Below are positions 2,403-24,769 of a DNA stretch of 26,960 nt, piece by piece (position 1 is the stretch's first letter; each line of letters opens with the position of its first letter). Source of the DNA: a virus. The position numbers and the translations under genes are program-made. Where the stretch lies: positions 1 to 26,960 of the IMG/VR virus record IMGVR_UViG_3300007522_000058. One strand, written 5' to 3'. Under the pieces are notes generated by a model. The model saw nothing but the letters and a program-made list of their open reading frames with translations. It made no database searches and was not told the origin of the DNA.

Positions 2403-3656
2403 ATGACCCTGAGCTTTGCCCCGGACGCGATTGAGACCTGGCCGCTGGCCAAGCTCCAGCCCTACGCGAAAAATGCAAAGATGCATGGCGCAGATCAGGT
2501 TGCGAAGATTGCCGCCAGCATGGCGGAGTTCGGCTGGACCGTGCCGTGCCTCGTCGCCGATGACGGAGAACTGATCGCGGGCCATGGCCGGGTGCTGGCC
2601 GCAACGCAACTCGGGCTGACCGAGGCCCCAGTGATCGTGCTGGGCCATCTGACCGAGGCGCAACGCCGGGCGTACCGTATCGCGGACAACAAGCTGACGG
2701 AACTCGGGACTTGGGATGAGGCGATGCTGTCGGCTGAGTTGAGCGACCTGCTGGCCGAGGACTACGACCTGTCGCTCATCGGTTTCGATGACGCCGAACT
2801 CAAGGCGCTTCTGGCCGGTGAGGTCGATCCTGAGATCGCTTCCCGCGAGGGCGAGGACGATGTTCCTGAGGCCCCTGAAACCCCGATCAGCCGACCGGGC
2901 GATCTTTGGGTGCTTGGCAAGCACCGATTGCTCTGTGGTGACGCCACCGTGGCCACCGATGTCGAGCGGCTGCTGGGTGATGTGAAGCCGCAACTGATGG
3001 TGACCGATCCGCCCTATGGCGTCGAATACGATCCCGGCTGGCGAAACAAGGCTGGGGCAGCCGCGACCAAGCGCACTGGTAAGGTGCTGAACGATGACCG
3101 CGCCGACTGGCGCGAGGCCTGGGCGTTGTTCCCCGGCGACGTCGCCTATGTCTGGCATGGGGCACTGCACGCGACCACGGTCGCCGACAGTCTGATTGCC
3201 TCAGGCTTCAACATCCGATCCCAGATCATCTGGGCCAAGGATCGCTTGGTGCTGAGCCGCGGCGATTATCACTGGCAGCACGAACCATGTCTCTATGCCG
3301 TGAAAAAAACCGGCAAGGGCCATTGGGCTGGCGACCGCAAACAGACGACGCTGTGGCAGATCGCAAACAAGGATCAGGATGCGGAAACCGTGCACGGGAC
3401 CCAGAAGCCTGTCGAATGCATGCGTCGGCCAATCCTTAACAATTCCAGCCCGGGTCAGGCCGTCTACGAGCCCTTCATGGGGTCCGGCACCACGCTGATC
3501 GCGGCCGAAACGACAGGTCGCGTCTGCTACGGGATCGAACTCAATCCGGTCTATGTCGATGTCGCTGTCGAGCGATGGCAGCAGTTCACGGGCAAGGACG
3601 CTGTCCTTTCTGGCTCCGATGAGGCCTTCAATAAAATCAAGACCAAAGACGCGTGA
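2403..3656 (+). CDS. ParB-domain DNA methyltransferase (beta-class, DPPY)
   Basis: 417 aa. Residues 10-140 form a ParB/sulfiredoxin-like domain: a nucleotide-binding-type GHGRVLAA box (60-67), then RAYRIADNKLTELG typical of phage ParB-methylase fusions. Residues 165-400 are an SAM-dependent N6-adenine/N4-cytosine methyltransferase with motif IV TDPPYG (201-206) before motif I EPFMGSGTT (356-364), which is the beta-class order. The TQKP segment (333-336) belongs to motif X. It methylates phage or host DNA, most likely to escape restriction or mark replication or packaging sites. The only ATG at the domain start is 2403; GAGG at 2386 is rather far (13 nt), so initiation may be weak. The C5-methyltransferase gene follows after 4 nt. 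Confidence 0.93.
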   Translation: MTLSFAPDAIETWPLAKLQPYAKNAKMHGADQVAKIAASMAEFGWTVPCLVADDGELIAGHGRVLAATQLGLTEAPVIVLGHLTEAQRRAYRIADNKLTELGTWDEAMLSAELSDLLAEDYDLSLIGFDDAELKALLAGEVDPEIASREGEDDVPEAPETPISRPGDLWVLGKHRLLCGDATVATDVERLLGDVKPQLMVTDPPYGVEYDPGWRNKAGAAATKRTGKVLNDDRADWREAWALFPGDVAYVWHGALHATTVADSLIASGFNIRSQIIWAKDRLVLSRGDYHWQHEPCLYAVKKTGKGHWAGDRKQTTLWQIANKDQDAETVHGTQKPVECMRRPILNNSSPGQAVYEPFMGSGTTLIAAETTGRVCYGIELNPVYVDVAVERWQQFTGKDAVLSGSDEAFNKIKTKDA

Positions 3657-3660
3657 GGCA

Positions 3661-4836
3661 ATGCATGACCTGGCTTTACCTTCCTCCGGCTACGCTTCCG
3701 GAGCCGGAGACCTATTTGGGCTCTCGCTCTGCTCCGGCGCCGGCGGGCTCGACCTCGGGCTCACCATCGCCATCCCCGGATATCGAACTGTGGGCCATGT
3801 CGAACGGGAAACCTTCGCCGCAGCCACTCTCGTGGCGCGGATGGAAGACGCGTCCTTGGATCCAGCGCCTGTCTGGGACGATGTTGCCAGCTTCGACGGC
3901 CGACCGTGGCGCGGCGCGGTGGACATCGTCACTGCGGGATATCCGTGCCAGCCGTTTTCGGTTGCGGGCAAACGCCTTGGTACCGAAGATCCACGCCACC
4001 TCTGGCCGCACGTCGCCCGGATCATCGGTGAATGCGAGCCGCCCTTCGTCTTCCTCGAGAATGTCGCCCATCATCTCCGCCTCGGCTTCCCCGAAGTCGC
4101 CAGCGGACTGGTCGGCATGGGCTACCGCCTTGCGGCAGGTCTCTTTACTGCGGCGGAAGTCGGCGCGCCGCACAAGCGTGAGCGGCTGTTCATCCTTGCC
4201 ATCCGCGAAGGCTGCGAATTGGCCGACCCCGCGCGCCTGCTCTGGGACCCGGTCGAGTGGCGGGAACCGGACCGAGATGTTGCGGCTATGGCCGACGCCC
4301 CGCGCCAGCGCCAACGAGAACCGGCAAACGAAACCAACGCCCTCGCAAGAAGCGGGCAAGCATGGGATGAACCTGGCAACCAGCGCCGCGATGTGGCCGA
4401 CGCCACAGACCGACAGCTTCCGGAGCCGGGGAGGAGACCGCAAGCACGAGAAGGGTCTGGACGGCATGGCGCGGGACTGGCCGACGCCGATGGCAAACGA
4501 TGGCTGCAAGCCGAGCGCGGGCAATCGCAAGACGGCCGATCTGACCCATGCCAGCCGCATGTGGATGACGCCGACGGCGCGGGATCACAAGGATGGGGCG
4601 ACGACATTGGCGAACACGCCGGTGAATGGCCTGCTTGGCCGCCAGGTCCTGGTGACGCCCATGGCTGGGAGCGATATCTCCGAGCAGCGCAGGACCTTGA
4701 ACCCGCTGTTCGTCGAGGCGCTGATGGGTTGGCCCACCGGGTGGACCGGCTTCGCCTCTGTGGCAACGGCGTGGTCCCCCTGGTTGCGGCGCATGCGCTG
4801 CGAACTCTCGCAGCTGAACTGCTGACCGATGGATGA
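3661..4836 (+). CDS. C5-cytosine-specific DNA methyltransferase
   Basis: 391 aa. Motif I is GLSLCSGAGGLDLGL (20-34) for SAM binding. Motif IV is GYPCQPFSVAGKR (93-105) with catalytic Cys96. Motif VI is FLENV (131-135). Motif VIII-like is EVGAPHKRERLFILA (166-180). Motif X is LCGNGVVPLVAAHAL (366-380). Residues 205-345, where the target-recognition region should lie, are low in complexity with repeated ADA words. It methylates cytosine at C5, probably against host restriction. The start at 3661 sits only 2 nt after GAGG (3655-3658), which is unusually tight; the same box is ideally placed for an overlapping ORF at 3665. In codons 220-272, 30 of 53 end in G or C (hand count), lower than the N-terminal half. 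See the overlapping ORF. Confidence 0.9.
   Translation: MHDLALPSSGYASGAGDLFGLSLCSGAGGLDLGLTIAIPGYRTVGHVERETFAAATLVARMEDASLDPAPVWDDVASFDGRPWRGAVDIVTAGYPCQPFSVAGKRLGTEDPRHLWPHVARIIGECEPPFVFLENVAHHLRLGFPEVASGLVGMGYRLAAGLFTAAEVGAPHKRERLFILAIREGCELADPARLLWDPVEWREPDRDVAAMADAPRQRQREPANETNALARSGQAWDEPGNQRRDVADATDRQLPEPGRRPQAREGSGRHGAGLADADGKRWLQAERGQSQDGRSDPCQPHVDDADGAGSQGWGDDIGEHAGEWPAWPPGPGDAHGWERYLRAAQDLEPAVRRGADGLAHRVDRLRLCGNGVVPLVAAHALRTLAAELLTDG
3665..4825 (+). CDS. Candidate overlapping gene, +1 frame inside the C5-methyltransferase gene
   Basis: An open frame of 386 aa from ATG 3665 to TGA 4823-4825, nested almost exactly in the methyltransferase gene. GAGG (3655-3658) lies 6 nt before this ATG, better than for the methyltransferase start. 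The second half (about 185-386) is not random-looking: WPTP recurs four times, then WMTP and VTP, each followed by polar segments such as TARDHKDG. Near the end comes LNPLFVEALMGWPTGWTGF, which resembles C-terminal segments I remember from phage methylase-associated proteins. Over 4319-4477, 42 of 53 codons end in G or C, against 30 of 53 in the methyltransferase frame (hand count). The N-terminal half is Ser/Arg/Pro-rich and less convincing. It could be an overprinted gene, part of a frameshifted methyltransferase, or an artefact of high GC. Confidence 0.4.
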   Translation: MTWLYLPPATLPEPETYLGSRSAPAPAGSTSGSPSPSPDIELWAMSNGKPSPQPLSWRGWKTRPWIQRLSGTMLPASTADRGAARWTSSLRDIRASRFRLRANALVPKIHATSGRTSPGSSVNASRPSSSSRMSPIISASASPKSPADWSAWATALRQVSLLRRKSARRTSVSGCSSLPSAKAANWPTPRACSGTRSSGGNRTEMLRLWPTPRASANENRQTKPTPSQEAGKHGMNLATSAAMWPTPQTDSFRSRGGDRKHEKGLDGMARDWPTPMANDGCKPSAGNRKTADLTHASRMWMTPTARDHKDGATTLANTPVNGLLGRQVLVTPMAGSDISEQRRTLNPLFVEALMGWPTGWTGFASVATAWSPWLRRMRCELSQLNC

Positions 4837-4864
4837 GGTGGTGGCCGATGGATGAGGTGGTGGC
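4827..4864 (+). repeat. 19-bp perfect tandem duplication carrying a stop codon and a ribosome binding site
   Basis: The unit CGATGGATGAGGTGGTGGC occurs at 4827-4845 and again at 4846-4864. The first copy contains the methyltransferase stop (TGA 4834-4836). The second supplies GAGG just upstream of the next start codon at 4865. It looks like a recent slippage duplication at a gene junction. Confidence 0.85.
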
Positions 4865-5185
4865 ATGAAGCAGTCGCGCCTCATGTCGCTGGTGGAGTCC
4901 GTCGCCAATGTGATCGTGGGCTACGGCGTCGCCGTCGCTACACAAATCCTGATCTTCCCGATCTTCGGGCTACACACAACGCTGGCGCAGAACCTGAAAA
5001 TGGGCGCGGTGTTCACGGTGGTGAGCATAGCGCGGTCCTATGTGCTACGGCGGCTATTCGAGGCAATCCGGGTCAAAACGACAAAGCCGCCGCCCATGAG
5101 GAGCGACGGCTCTGTTCGGCATCGACTTCCCTACCGCCGGTATTTCAGCGGTGCAGCAGGGCGGGATCAGTCTTCAATCCGATAG
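4865..5185 (+). CDS. DUF7220-like small inner-membrane protein
   Basis: 106 aa from ATG 4865, with GAGGTGG upstream in the tandem repeat. Residues 1-70 (MKQSRLMSLVESVANVIVGY then VAVATQILIFPIFGL and LAQNLKMGAVFTVVSIARSYVLRRLFE) match my memory of DUF7220. It forms two membrane-spanning helices with a short loop and a basic cytoplasmic end, so it should sit in the inner membrane. The last 35 residues are basic, read through a hairpin that probably serves the opposite strand, and overlap the 3' end of the leftward DUF3489 gene by 19 nt. That tail may not be conserved. Its role is unknown; being coupled to methyltransferases suggests a job in the same early module. Confidence 0.78.
   Translation: MKQSRLMSLVESVANVIVGYGVAVATQILIFPIFGLHTTLAQNLKMGAVFTVVSIARSYVLRRLFEAIRVKTTKPPPMRSDGSVRHRLPYRRYFSGAAGRDQSSIR
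5071..5111 (-). terminator. Candidate intrinsic terminator for the leftward operon
   Basis: Read leftward, AGCCGTCGC (5111-5103) pairs with GCGGCGGCT (5093-5085) with one C-A mismatch around a 9-nt loop. It is followed by TTTGTCGTTTTG (5085-5074 region). It lies about 55 nt beyond the stop of the leftward DUF3489 gene and inside the end of the convergent DUF7220 gene. In the rightward direction no T tract follows. Confidence 0.45.
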
Positions 5186-21427: not shown

Positions 21428-24400
21428 ATGGGCGGCCGTTCGAAGTCGCAAACCGTCGGCTATCGCTATTCGCTCGGGGCGCATCTAGCGCTCTGTCACG
21501 GGCCCGTGGATGCGATCCGCGAGATCAGGGTCGATGGCCGCACGGCCTGGTCGATTGGAACGGGTCAGAGCACGTCGCAAGGAACCGGTGTCGGCGCGTT
21601 GACGAGCTATGGCACCGTCACCGGCATGTCCGCCACCGCGGCCGCAGAGGGCGACAGCGTGGCCGAGGTCCGGTTCCCAGGCACACTCAGCGGCATTCGG
21701 CTCGGCCAGAGCTATGACCTGCAGCTTCTGGCGGATAATGCGACCCGCACCGTGACGGTCCAGGCTGTGAGCTATGCTGCGGGCACTGGCATCACCACCT
21801 GGCTCGTCGAGCCCGCCGCCACGGCGTTCTCGGCCCAATCGGTGGCGGTGTCGGACGCGGCCAGCGTACCAAGCCTGAACGGCGGCGCTGCAGGCGGACG
21901 CATCCGGATCAACAAGCCCGATCTCTTCGGCGGCGAGAAGCGCGAAGGCGGGATCGTCGGCGACATCGACGTGCTGATGGGTGCGCCGAGCCAGGCGCAG
22001 AACGACTATCTCGCCGCCAATGCCGGTGCCGATGTGCCGGGCTATCGCGGGATTTGTTCGCTGGTGCTGCGGCAGGTGTTTCTTGGCCTCAATCCCTACC
22101 TCAAGCCATGGTCGGTCCGCCTGACGCGGATCCTGAAAGCTGAGGATGGCGGCCAACAATGGTATCCCGAGAAGGCGCAGATCGTACCGGAAGTCCGGAT
22201 CGGAGATGCCGCCATTTATATCGCCATGGACGCCTCGGGCTCGATGTCGGGATCGCGCATGGCGGCGCAGATCGCCGCGGTCTCGCGTCTGGTGGAAGAG
22301 ATTGGCGAGAATGCCCTGGAGCCCAACGACGTCCAGATCGTCACCTGGAACTCCACTGTGTCCGGCACGATCCTGCGGCGCGACGCCGATGCCACGGCCT
22401 ACGGCGAGCTCAAGGACTGGGTCGATGCGCTCTCAAGCTCCGTGAGCGGCGGCACGGATTTCGGCGTCGCCGTCAGCCAGGCGGGGACGTTTTTCAACGG
22501 CTCCGGCGGCAAACGACGCATCCTGATCTTCGTCACCGACGGTGAGCCGAGCCCGGCCTCAACCCTTCAAACCGCGATCGCAACGCTCGCAGGCATCTCG
22601 GAGGTCGATGTCTTCGCCTTCAACATCGCGCTCTCGGACACCAGTGCCACGGCCCAGATTGACAACACGCCGGTTGATGGCGTGCCGGTCGTGCCGCCCG
22701 GCGATCCTGATGCACTGGTCGCCTTGCTGCGCGCAGCCTTCGGGCAAGGCCCTGACATGAACCCGGCCCATATCATCCGGGAAAGTCTGACCAACGGGGA
22801 TTGGGGTCTCGGGCATACCTTCACCGATATTGGCCCCAGCTTCGCTGTCGCTGCGGACGCGCTTTTCTCAGAGGGCTTCGGGTTGTCGCTGCTCTGGCAG
22901 CGGGAGTCGACCATCGAGGACTTCATCGCAGACGTGCTGAAGCACATCGACGCCTATCTCTATGTTGACCGTCGCTCGGGTCGCTGGGAGTTGCGCCTGA
23001 TCCGCGCTGATTATGATCCCGAGACCCTGCCGGTCTTCGACGAGACCAATGTCGTTGACTGGGGTGAGCTCGGCCGCCGCGAGGCCGCTGATCTCGTGAA
23101 CTCAGTCACCGCAAAGTTCTCTGACGCTCGCACCGACCAGACCGGATCGGTTAGCGTGACCGACACCGCGCTCGTTCAGGACCTCGGTCAGGTGATCAGC
23201 GCGACGGTCGATTACCCGGGCATTCGCTTCGAGTCCCTTGCCGTGCGGGTCGCGGAACGCGATTTGCGCGCACTCTCCGCACCGATCTTGTCGGGCGAGA
23301 TCACGGTCTCCCGTGTCGGTGCCGAGCTCGATCCGGGCGACGTGATCGTGCTATCAAACCCGAGGCGCGGGCTCGAAGGCGTCGTGGTCCGCATCGTCGA
23401 AATCGACCATGGCGACGGGCGCGCCAATGGCGTGCGCCTCAGGGTCGCCGAGGATGTCTTCGCGCTTGGCGAGACCGCCCTTGTCGGCGGCGAAAGCGGC
23501 GATCCCGGCAGCCTGATCCTGCCGCCCAAGCCGCTGACGCGCCGCTGGGTGGCTGAAGCGCCATACTGGTTGTTGGTCCAGGAATTGGGGCACGCGCAGG
23601 CCGACGCGCTTCTCGATGAGGATCCCGATGTCGGCGCGATCGTCGCGGCCGGGGAACGCCCTTCGGCCGATGCGCTCTCGGCGCAGGTCTGGAGCGACAG
23701 CGGCGCAGGGTACACGCTGGAAGAGGCGGTCGAGTTCGTGCCAACCGCTCTGCTTGTGTCAGACGTCAGTGACGACCCGGCCGAGAGCGTCCTCGTGGTT
23801 GGCAGCTGGACCGGGCTCGGGGACGTGGCCATCGGCACGCTGGCCGCGATCGGAGATGAACTGGTCCGGATAGACGGGGTAAGTGCAACGGTGCTGACCG
23901 TCGGGCGCGGCTGTCTGGACACTGTCCCGCAAGCCCATATCGCGGGCATGCCGGTGATCTGCTGGCAGCAGCTGGCGAATGCGTCGGAGGCGGGGTTTGT
24001 GGCCGGAGAGACGGTCACGATCAAGATGCTGCCCGAGACCGGTTTCGGGACATTGCCGCTCGCGCAGGCCCCCGAAGATGCCGTGACACTGGCCAGCCGC
24101 GCCATCCGGCCGCTTCCGCCCGGTGATCTGCGCGGCAATGGCGTCTCGGTCGTGAACCCGAACGTCCTGAACCTCGGGCCGGTCCTTTTGACCTGGTCCC
24201 ATCGTGACAGGCTGACCCAGACCAGTAGCGTGTTCGACGCCTATGACGCGGGCGACATCGGGCCGGAGCCCGGCGTCACCTATGCGGTCGAGATCCGCTG
24301 GGTCGATCCTGATACTGACACAACGCTTGAGCCACCCGCCGCCGTGATAGACGTGGGTGCCGCCAACAGCATAACGCTGACCAAGGAGGATATTCCGATC

Positions 24401-24769
24401 CTCGCAGCGCCCACTGGCACGAAACATTTCGAGGTCCGGGTGCAGGCGCGCCGCACGACCGGTACGATCGCCTACGAGGCTTGGCAGGCCCGTTCGATCC
24501 GGCTCTTCATGCCGGACGGCATCAAGGTGGCCGAAGTCTCTGCCTGGACCGAGATCGGGGCCGATGCGCGTCTTACGGTCGCCGACACAGTAATCTTCCT
24601 TGATCGCGGCGGGGCGGTGCTGCTGACCATCGCCGAGGCCGCCATATGGATCGGCTTTGGCAGTGACGCGCGCCTCACCATACCGGACATCGACATCTTC
24701 AACGAATGGGGCGGCCAGTCCCGTCTCACGGCCGCCGAGGCCGCTCTCTATATCGAGGTACTCCCATGA
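21428..24769 (+). CDS. Large tail-tip / host-specificity protein with inserted vWA domain
   Basis: 1113 aa from ATG 21428; the ribosome binding site is weak. The N-terminal part (1-255) begins RSKSQTVGYRYSLGAHLALCHGPVDAI, as in phage hub proteins. Residues about 262-437 are a von Willebrand A domain with a full MIDAS: DASGS (Asp268, Ser270, Ser272), Thr343 in GGTDFG and Asp371 in VTDGEP. Residues about 475-690 resemble a gp27/J-type hub (YLYVDRRSGRWELRLI, GELGRREAADLVNSVTAKFSD, PGDVIVLSNPRRGLEG). Beta domains of fibronectin type probably follow (about 915-1025). The end carries five 17-residue repeats. It should sit at the tail tip and touch the host surface. The vWA domain suggests metal-dependent protein binding there (inference). 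Confidence 0.9.
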   Translation: MGGRSKSQTVGYRYSLGAHLALCHGPVDAIREIRVDGRTAWSIGTGQSTSQGTGVGALTSYGTVTGMSATAAAEGDSVAEVRFPGTLSGIRLGQSYDLQLLADNATRTVTVQAVSYAAGTGITTWLVEPAATAFSAQSVAVSDAASVPSLNGGAAGGRIRINKPDLFGGEKREGGIVGDIDVLMGAPSQAQNDYLAANAGADVPGYRGICSLVLRQVFLGLNPYLKPWSVRLTRILKAEDGGQQWYPEKAQIVPEVRIGDAAIYIAMDASGSMSGSRMAAQIAAVSRLVEEIGENALEPNDVQIVTWNSTVSGTILRRDADATAYGELKDWVDALSSSVSGGTDFGVAVSQAGTFFNGSGGKRRILIFVTDGEPSPASTLQTAIATLAGISEVDVFAFNIALSDTSATAQIDNTPVDGVPVVPPGDPDALVALLRAAFGQGPDMNPAHIIRESLTNGDWGLGHTFTDIGPSFAVAADALFSEGFGLSLLWQRESTIEDFIADVLKHIDAYLYVDRRSGRWELRLIRADYDPETLPVFDETNVVDWGELGRREAADLVNSVTAKFSDARTDQTGSVSVTDTALVQDLGQVISATVDYPGIRFESLAVRVAERDLRALSAPILSGEITVSRVGAELDPGDVIVLSNPRRGLEGVVVRIVEIDHGDGRANGVRLRVAEDVFALGETALVGGESGDPGSLILPPKPLTRRWVAEAPYWLLVQELGHAQADALLDEDPDVGAIVAAGERPSADALSAQVWSDSGAGYTLEEAVEFVPTALLVSDVSDDPAESVLVVGSWTGLGDVAIGTLAAIGDELVRIDGVSATVLTVGRGCLDTVPQAHIAGMPVICWQQLANASEAGFVAGETVTIKMLPETGFGTLPLAQAPEDAVTLASRAIRPLPPGDLRGNGVSVVNPNVLNLGPVLLTWSHRDRLTQTSSVFDAYDAGDIGPEPGVTYAVEIRWVDPDTDTTLEPPAAVIDVGAANSITLTKEDIPILAAPTGTKHFEVRVQARRTTGTIAYEAWQARSIRLFMPDGIKVAEVSAWTEIGADARLTVADTVIFLDRGGAVLLTIAEAAIWIGFGSDARLTIPDIDIFNEWGGQSRLTAAEAALYIEVLP
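24509..24766 (+). repeat. Five tandem 17-residue (51-bp) coding repeats at the end of the tail-tip gene
   Basis: Residues 1028-1113 split into four 17-residue units and a last one of 18. Examples are ADARLTVADTVIFLDRG and SDARLTIPDIDIFNEWG. The shared pattern is hydrophobic at position 5 and 7, acidic at 9, aromatic at 12 or 13 and Gly at 17. DNA identity between units is low, so this is an old repeat kept at protein level, likely a strand-turn structure such as a beta helix. Confidence 0.75.

Follow-up and report, generated by a model that had tools for sequence, protein, structure and literature searches.

M.EcoHK31I is the type of a methylase with specificity YGGCCR in which two chains are both required for methylation, the smaller (beta, 176 aa) being encoded in an alternative frame inside the gene for the larger; M.EaeI is similar. 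Long genes that code in two frames of one strand are rare and contested, and annotation rules usually suppress them. Of the two polypeptides reported for M.EcoHK31I, the larger carries motifs I–VIII and X and the smaller carries motif IX, and the predicted recognition domain was placed in alpha in 2012 (PMC3404938). M.AquI is another natural two-chain, split C5-methyltransferase (PMC3404938).

The pair of frames described here lies in a window (the whole 26,960-nucleotide stretch of viral DNA that was analysed) which by its gene content is a piece of phage genome, other phage genes being those for terminase gpA (6887), a lambda-type portal (9111), a Clp protease (10570) and capsid E (11811). 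Like M.EcoHK31I, with which it was compared by description, the pair has motifs I–VIII and X on the larger chain (alpha, frame A) and motif IX on the smaller (beta, frame B). Unlike in M.EcoHK31I, frame B is nearly as long as A, starting 4 nt after it and ending 11 nt before it; the tandem start is conserved; and selection assigns the recognition region to beta. We consider it highly probable (about 0.87) that this locus specifies a C5 DNA methyltransferase of two subunits and of the M.EcoHK31I kind, made from two almost co-extensive frames. Computed evidence for this consists of selection on both frames, the map of coding phase, conservation of the starts, the collinearity with one-chain enzymes and the fold predicted for alpha.

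Layout of the locus and nature of the two proteins

The features of the locus are as follows.

2403–3656, + strand: gene upstream of the pair, an N6/N4-type DNA methylase (PF01555), whose TGA stop (3654–3656) lies 4 nt ahead of the alpha start
3655–3658, + strand: GAGG box, ending 2 nt before the alpha ATG and 6 nt before that of beta
3661–4836, + strand: alpha gene, frame A, 391 aa; a C5 cytosine methyltransferase that lacks motif IX and the recognition region (PF00145, AF2)
3661–3667, + strand: overlapping tandem starts ATG-C-ATG (alpha 3661–3663, beta 3665–3667)
3665–4825, + strand: putative beta gene, frame B (+1 to A), 386 aa (selection and relatives)
3665–3690, + strand: N-terminal tip MTWLYLPP, B-coded (A third positions invariant)
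3712–4218, + strand: motifs I–VIII, A-coded, with B constrained in patches at A residues 41–66 and 131–160 (dN/dS, four-fold sites)
4217–4684, + strand: beta recognition region of repeated W[PM]TP modules, B-coded (dN/dS)
4228–4614, + strand: spacer inside the recognition region that is neutral in A, A residues ~190–318 (dN/dS, A stop counts, pLDDT)
4615–4734, + strand: doubly constrained stretch, A residues 319–358 (selection in both frames, four-fold sites)
4697–4747, + strand: motif IX, LNPLFVEALMGWPTGWT, B-coded (columns of alignment A3 almost invariant; collinear with single-chain LAPAFSEWMMGWPAGW)
4738–4833, + strand: motif X, RVDRLRLCGNGVVPLVAAH..., in alpha (A dN/dS 0.03 [0.01–0.06])

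The initial annotation had given both frames with exact coordinates, lengths and distance between stops, had measured the spacing of the box correctly, and had listed motifs I, IV, VI, VIII and X for A and, for B, the WPTP words and LNPLFVEALMGWPTGWT, all of which are present; it was also right to assign motif IX to the second frame. Its counts of G/C-ending codons in A and B (30 vs 42 of 53 codons in one sample, 39 vs 41 of 53 in another) were reproduced exactly. The open stretches themselves begin further upstream, A from 3553 and B from 3653.

Frame A alone belongs to PF00145, with motifs I, IV (PCQ), VI (ENV), VIII (RxR) and X (GNxVxP), and scores 111 bits over profile positions 4–168 only. 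An A-B-A composite (A 1–186, B 185–363 and A 356–391), which serves as a search query only, scores 122.8 bits over positions 4–320 of 324. As in M.EcoHK31I-type enzymes, the chain with motifs I–VIII and X lacks IX, and motif IX is found in another frame of the same DNA, selection pointing to a separate chain. Two mycobacteriophage proteins, prophiGD91-2 gp27 and Rita gp76, are 44–49% identical to A 1–190, match B 185–360 (E 1e-6 and 2e-5) and have motif X as in A. Their order is motifs I–VIII, PTP words, L.P.F.EWMMGWP.GW and GNGVVP; the parts and their order are thus identical to those found here, yet they occupy a single frame and a single chain. These matches indicate that the C-terminal half of B corresponds to the recognition region plus motif IX, exactly the parts that A is without.

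The predicted structure of alpha (AF2) has a core with pLDDT mostly 83–97 and a C-terminal motif X region at 53–91, separated by residues 197–321, which are predicted to be disordered (pLDDT < 50, mostly < 35). Its best PDB matches were M.HhaI and M.HaeIII, aligned over ~170 residues only. Beta modelled alone was poor (mean pLDDT 46) and was left out of the fold search; a PDB sequence search with beta gave nothing useful, two weak matches to MS2 coat protein being taken as chance.

On the proposed model, alpha would provide the catalytic domain, with motifs I–VIII joined to the C-terminal motif X helix by an unstructured spacer, and beta would provide the target-recognition region and motif IX. 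Both chains would be expressed and would associate so that core, recognition region and motif X meet as in a one-chain enzyme, and the active split enzyme would methylate the phage's own DNA. We infer self-protection of phage DNA against host restriction as its biological role because this is the usual role of phage methylases. The layout may have originated from a one-chain gene whose central part was shifted by one base, through a slip ahead of the recognition region that a second slip ahead of motif X compensated; each frame would then consist of ancestral enzyme segments and overprinted filler.

Several further features were noted in the window. Two neighbouring methylases of unlike chemistry occur in this phage, the N6/N4-type enzyme of PF01555 (2403–3656) adjoining the C5 pair. 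Right after the beta stop and across the end of alpha, GATGGATGAGGTGGTGGC occurs twice as a short tandem duplication (4826–4862), a site at which tail length varies among relatives. A DUF7220 protein (4865–5185) lies directly 3′ of the pair, and a large tail protein (21428–24769) combines a phage-tail domain with a von Willebrand factor A domain.

Coding phase and selection

Third positions of A codons, which are nearly silent in A, are second positions in B, so the position at which relatives vary shows which frame is constrained. The main phase map was built from 128 sequences, with estimates that ignore phylogeny and mutation bias, and the same map had come from an earlier, smaller sequence set. 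Since the relatives are not independent, the counts give direction and size rather than exact probabilities.

Across motifs I–VIII (A residues 18–186) variation falls at A third positions, and dN/dS is 0.13 for A and 0.59 [0.40–0.85] for B in the 128 sequences; B comes close to neutrality over motifs IV (0.98) and VIII (1.10). From residue 187 to ~318–340 the variation shifts to A first positions, the third positions of B, with dN/dS of 1.01 [0.69–1.44] for A and 0.13 [0.09–0.17] for B, the low B value spanning 154 codons where A is neutral. Residues 319–358 vary little at all positions, both frames being at about 0.4–0.5, and in motif X variation returns to A third positions, in keeping with the low A dN/dS listed above. 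Diversity at four-fold A sites follows the same map: 0.25–0.32 in the motif I, IV and VIII blocks vs 0.003 in the B-coded block, and 0.036 in the doubly constrained stretch. Within the N-terminal half, A-silent variation is suppressed in the two patches, A residues 41–66 (p = 2e-5) and 131–160 (p = 2e-6).

The strong purifying selection on B makes it most likely that this frame encodes a second protein, as the initial annotation had suggested; that annotation had proposed testing both frames in homologous loci, and when these were gathered purifying selection was found in each, depending on the region. Its idea of a dual-coding 3′ half stands for residues ~319–358, where both frames are constrained. 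It fails for ~187–318, where A is neutral and B alone is constrained, and motif X is coded in A.

Free breakage of B among relatives, which would have spoken against a second protein, did not occur. The set of close relatives comprised 80 viral and 80 genomic loci. Interruptions of frame B were confined to two of them, L072 (a stop at residue 178, beyond which the frame continues intact) and L108, and those of frame A to four, L009, L010, L101 and L111; each of these copies has an intact other frame. L011 is a partial locus, and L171 and L172 show artefacts of start coordinates. Prophage genes can be expected to include some broken copies, yet one subunit could sometimes be dispensable. In the B-coded block, only two A-frame stops were seen in 72 sequences vs 2.15 expected per sequence given the B protein. 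That A is kept open while its amino acids vary freely is expected if alpha must reach motif X. For the N-terminal half of B, the relatives' own codon usage predicts just 0.53 stops per sequence, so its openness says little as a test.

Start codons and the extent of beta

The tandem start ATG-N-ATG is present in all 153 close loci scanned, with N free to vary among C, A, G and T, while divergent loci mostly have GTG-A-ATG, ATG-C-ATG or GTG-C-ATG. The first eight A codons have invariant third positions and varying first positions; this lack of third-position variation indicates that the tip MTWLYLPP is read in B. Its motif M[TAS]W[LCV][YHF][VLI]P is retained in divergent phages at 30–45% overall identity.

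The upstream gene stops at -7, -6, -4 or +1 with respect to the alpha start in 199 of 220 loci. Within the divergent GTGAATG group, the A start, upstream stop and B start (G-TGA-ATG) occupy only seven bases. An SD-like word occurs in just 96 of the 220 loci, and the GAGG box is not conserved. The coupling to the upstream stop, together with an SD-like word in under half of the loci, makes it likely that both subunits are started by re-initiation of ribosomes finishing the upstream gene. Ribosomes leaving that methylase gene would re-initiate at either of the two start codons, 4 nt apart. Influenza B virus also makes two proteins, NB and NA, from different frames with start codons 4 nt apart; unlike these, the phage pair is coupled to an upstream stop and its products are proposed to be parts of one enzyme.

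Full-length B is our best reading of these starts, the extent of the N-terminal half that matters being less settled. By somewhat better than even odds, all of beta would be functional, including the half lying over motifs I–VIII. About 390 codons read in two frames would then yield interlocking subunits, the tandem start at the upstream stop would set their ratio, and the frames would be reciprocal mosaics of ancestral segments and de novo filler.

It is unlikely, though this is the best placed of the alternatives, that beta is a chain of ~182 aa begun at an internal start near B residue 204, with the N-terminal half of B only passively open. Such a chain would be close in size to the 176-aa beta of M.EcoHK31I, would fit the near neutrality of B over motifs IV and VIII, and would survive the B stop of L072, downstream of which the frame is intact. 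Nonetheless, the candidate internal starts are variable (a mixture of ATG, CTG and TTG at A position 206), and the segment WPTPRACSG, which lies upstream of them, is itself constrained in B. Conservation of the distal ATG and the N-terminal tip over divergent phages, and the suppressed A-synonymous variation in the N-half patches, also argue against an internal start and for the full-length frame.

The initial annotation had further raised a hybrid methylase produced by frame switching. Ribosomes would leave A for B once past motif VIII (near 4215) and might return to A ahead of motif X, giving a single chain. We regard this as very unlikely. The B coding pressure does begin exactly at the junction of motif VIII and the recognition region, B has no conserved start codon between the L072 stop and ~B residue 204, and the hybrid order exists naturally in single-chain relatives. 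However, two programmed shifts of opposite sense would be required, and inspection of divergent junctions by eye, rather than by formal search, revealed no shared slippery sequence. Nor would frameshifting have any need of the invariant B ATG 4 nt after that of A, of the B-coded tip, of the constrained N-half patches or of a neutral spacer almost free of A stops, since a hybrid never translates that spacer in A.

Openness of B in one sequence is weak evidence of coding, because its probability is 0.05–0.08 under synonymous recoding: the +1 frame was open across the whole gene in 5% of trials when A was recoded synonymously with window codon usage, and in 8% when A's own codons were permuted. 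It is conservation in relatives that makes the overlap other than a product of chance. We can dismiss the readings of B as a side effect of high GC in a methylase gene, where an open +1 frame would arise in 5–8% of single genes of such composition, or as what is left of an older, decayed frame: B has a dN/dS of 0.13 over 154 codons in which A is neutral, and nearly all divergent loci examined repeat the layout.

Related systems, distribution and annotation

Close relatives of the pair occur in genomes of Rhodobacteraceae and other Alphaproteobacteria, B matches being present in at least 40 of 199 sampled genomes of the family of L095 and at least 14 of 289 genomes of its class (lower bounds, as scoring covered only part of the candidates). 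Of the divergent viral loci from Alphaproteobacteria that were examined, nearly all carry motifs IV, VI, VIII and X in A, and W-TP words plus motif IX in B. Two loci look broken by indels: in L184 alpha stops early and motif X carries on in frame B, and in L208 alpha ends within the tail of beta, which runs on.

A second type is found in gammaproteobacterial phages and E. coli prophages. The overlapping 'C-specific methylase' and 'Mte8-like' genes of Escherichia phage K1ind2, and E. coli prophage relatives (L085, L313, L314), have the +1 two-frame layout, with motif X in alpha, motif IX in beta and the same phase map as here. Unlike here, their beta starts ~88 nt inside alpha rather than at 4 nt, the N-termini differ, and motif IX reads LNPAHSRWLMG. 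The spacer of this type cannot be aligned by A, so pairwise phase counts were used instead of an A-based selection alignment; differences at A positions 1/2/3 were 0.11/0.05/0.31 in motifs I–VIII and 0.35/0.09/0.08 from motif VIII to IX. The K1ind2 alpha has 309 aa, as does the EcoHK31I alpha, and is likely a close relative of M.EcoHK31I. The phase map found here puts the recognition region in beta, contrary to the 2012 placement for M.EcoHK31I, and the locus bears on the location of the recognition domain in enzymes of this type.

A split like that of M.AquI, whose smaller chain has both IX and X, was considered for the present pair and rejected: here motif X sits on the larger chain, in frame A (dN/dS 0.03). 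Genes 78 and 77 of Mycobacterium phage Happiness (L090) are adjoining annotated DNA methyltransferases with a 23-nt overlap, and probably represent this type of enzyme split in the manner of M.AquI.

The two-frame layout turns out, on comparison of these loci, to be old and common in phages. A two-chain build with motif IX on the smaller chain was already known from M.EcoHK31I (PMC3404938); new here are the near-complete overlap, the recognition region assigned to beta, the tandem-start anatomy and the wide distribution. Our literature search, of partial coverage, found no open-access paper on widespread two-frame methylases. The locus represents an old, common dual-coding gene with a likely enzyme function that would explain the retention of both frames, and it permits a direct test of dual coding as well as one of whether overlapping start codons control subunit ratio.

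Public records of such loci may list A alone, B alone, both frames or halves of a pseudogene, a mixture indicating that split methylases are being mis-called. In E. coli ECCTRSRTH03 (L313), RefSeq has two incomplete halves flagged as pseudogenes, though both frames are open. Finally, a beta module, [WP]TPKAITGG[AP]NSKR.ER.GGPDLQE, is shared by the otherwise divergent beta proteins of five loci (L180, L181, L186, L189 and L194); its recurrence suggests that recognition modules have been exchanged among beta proteins, necessarily as segments free of stops in both frames.
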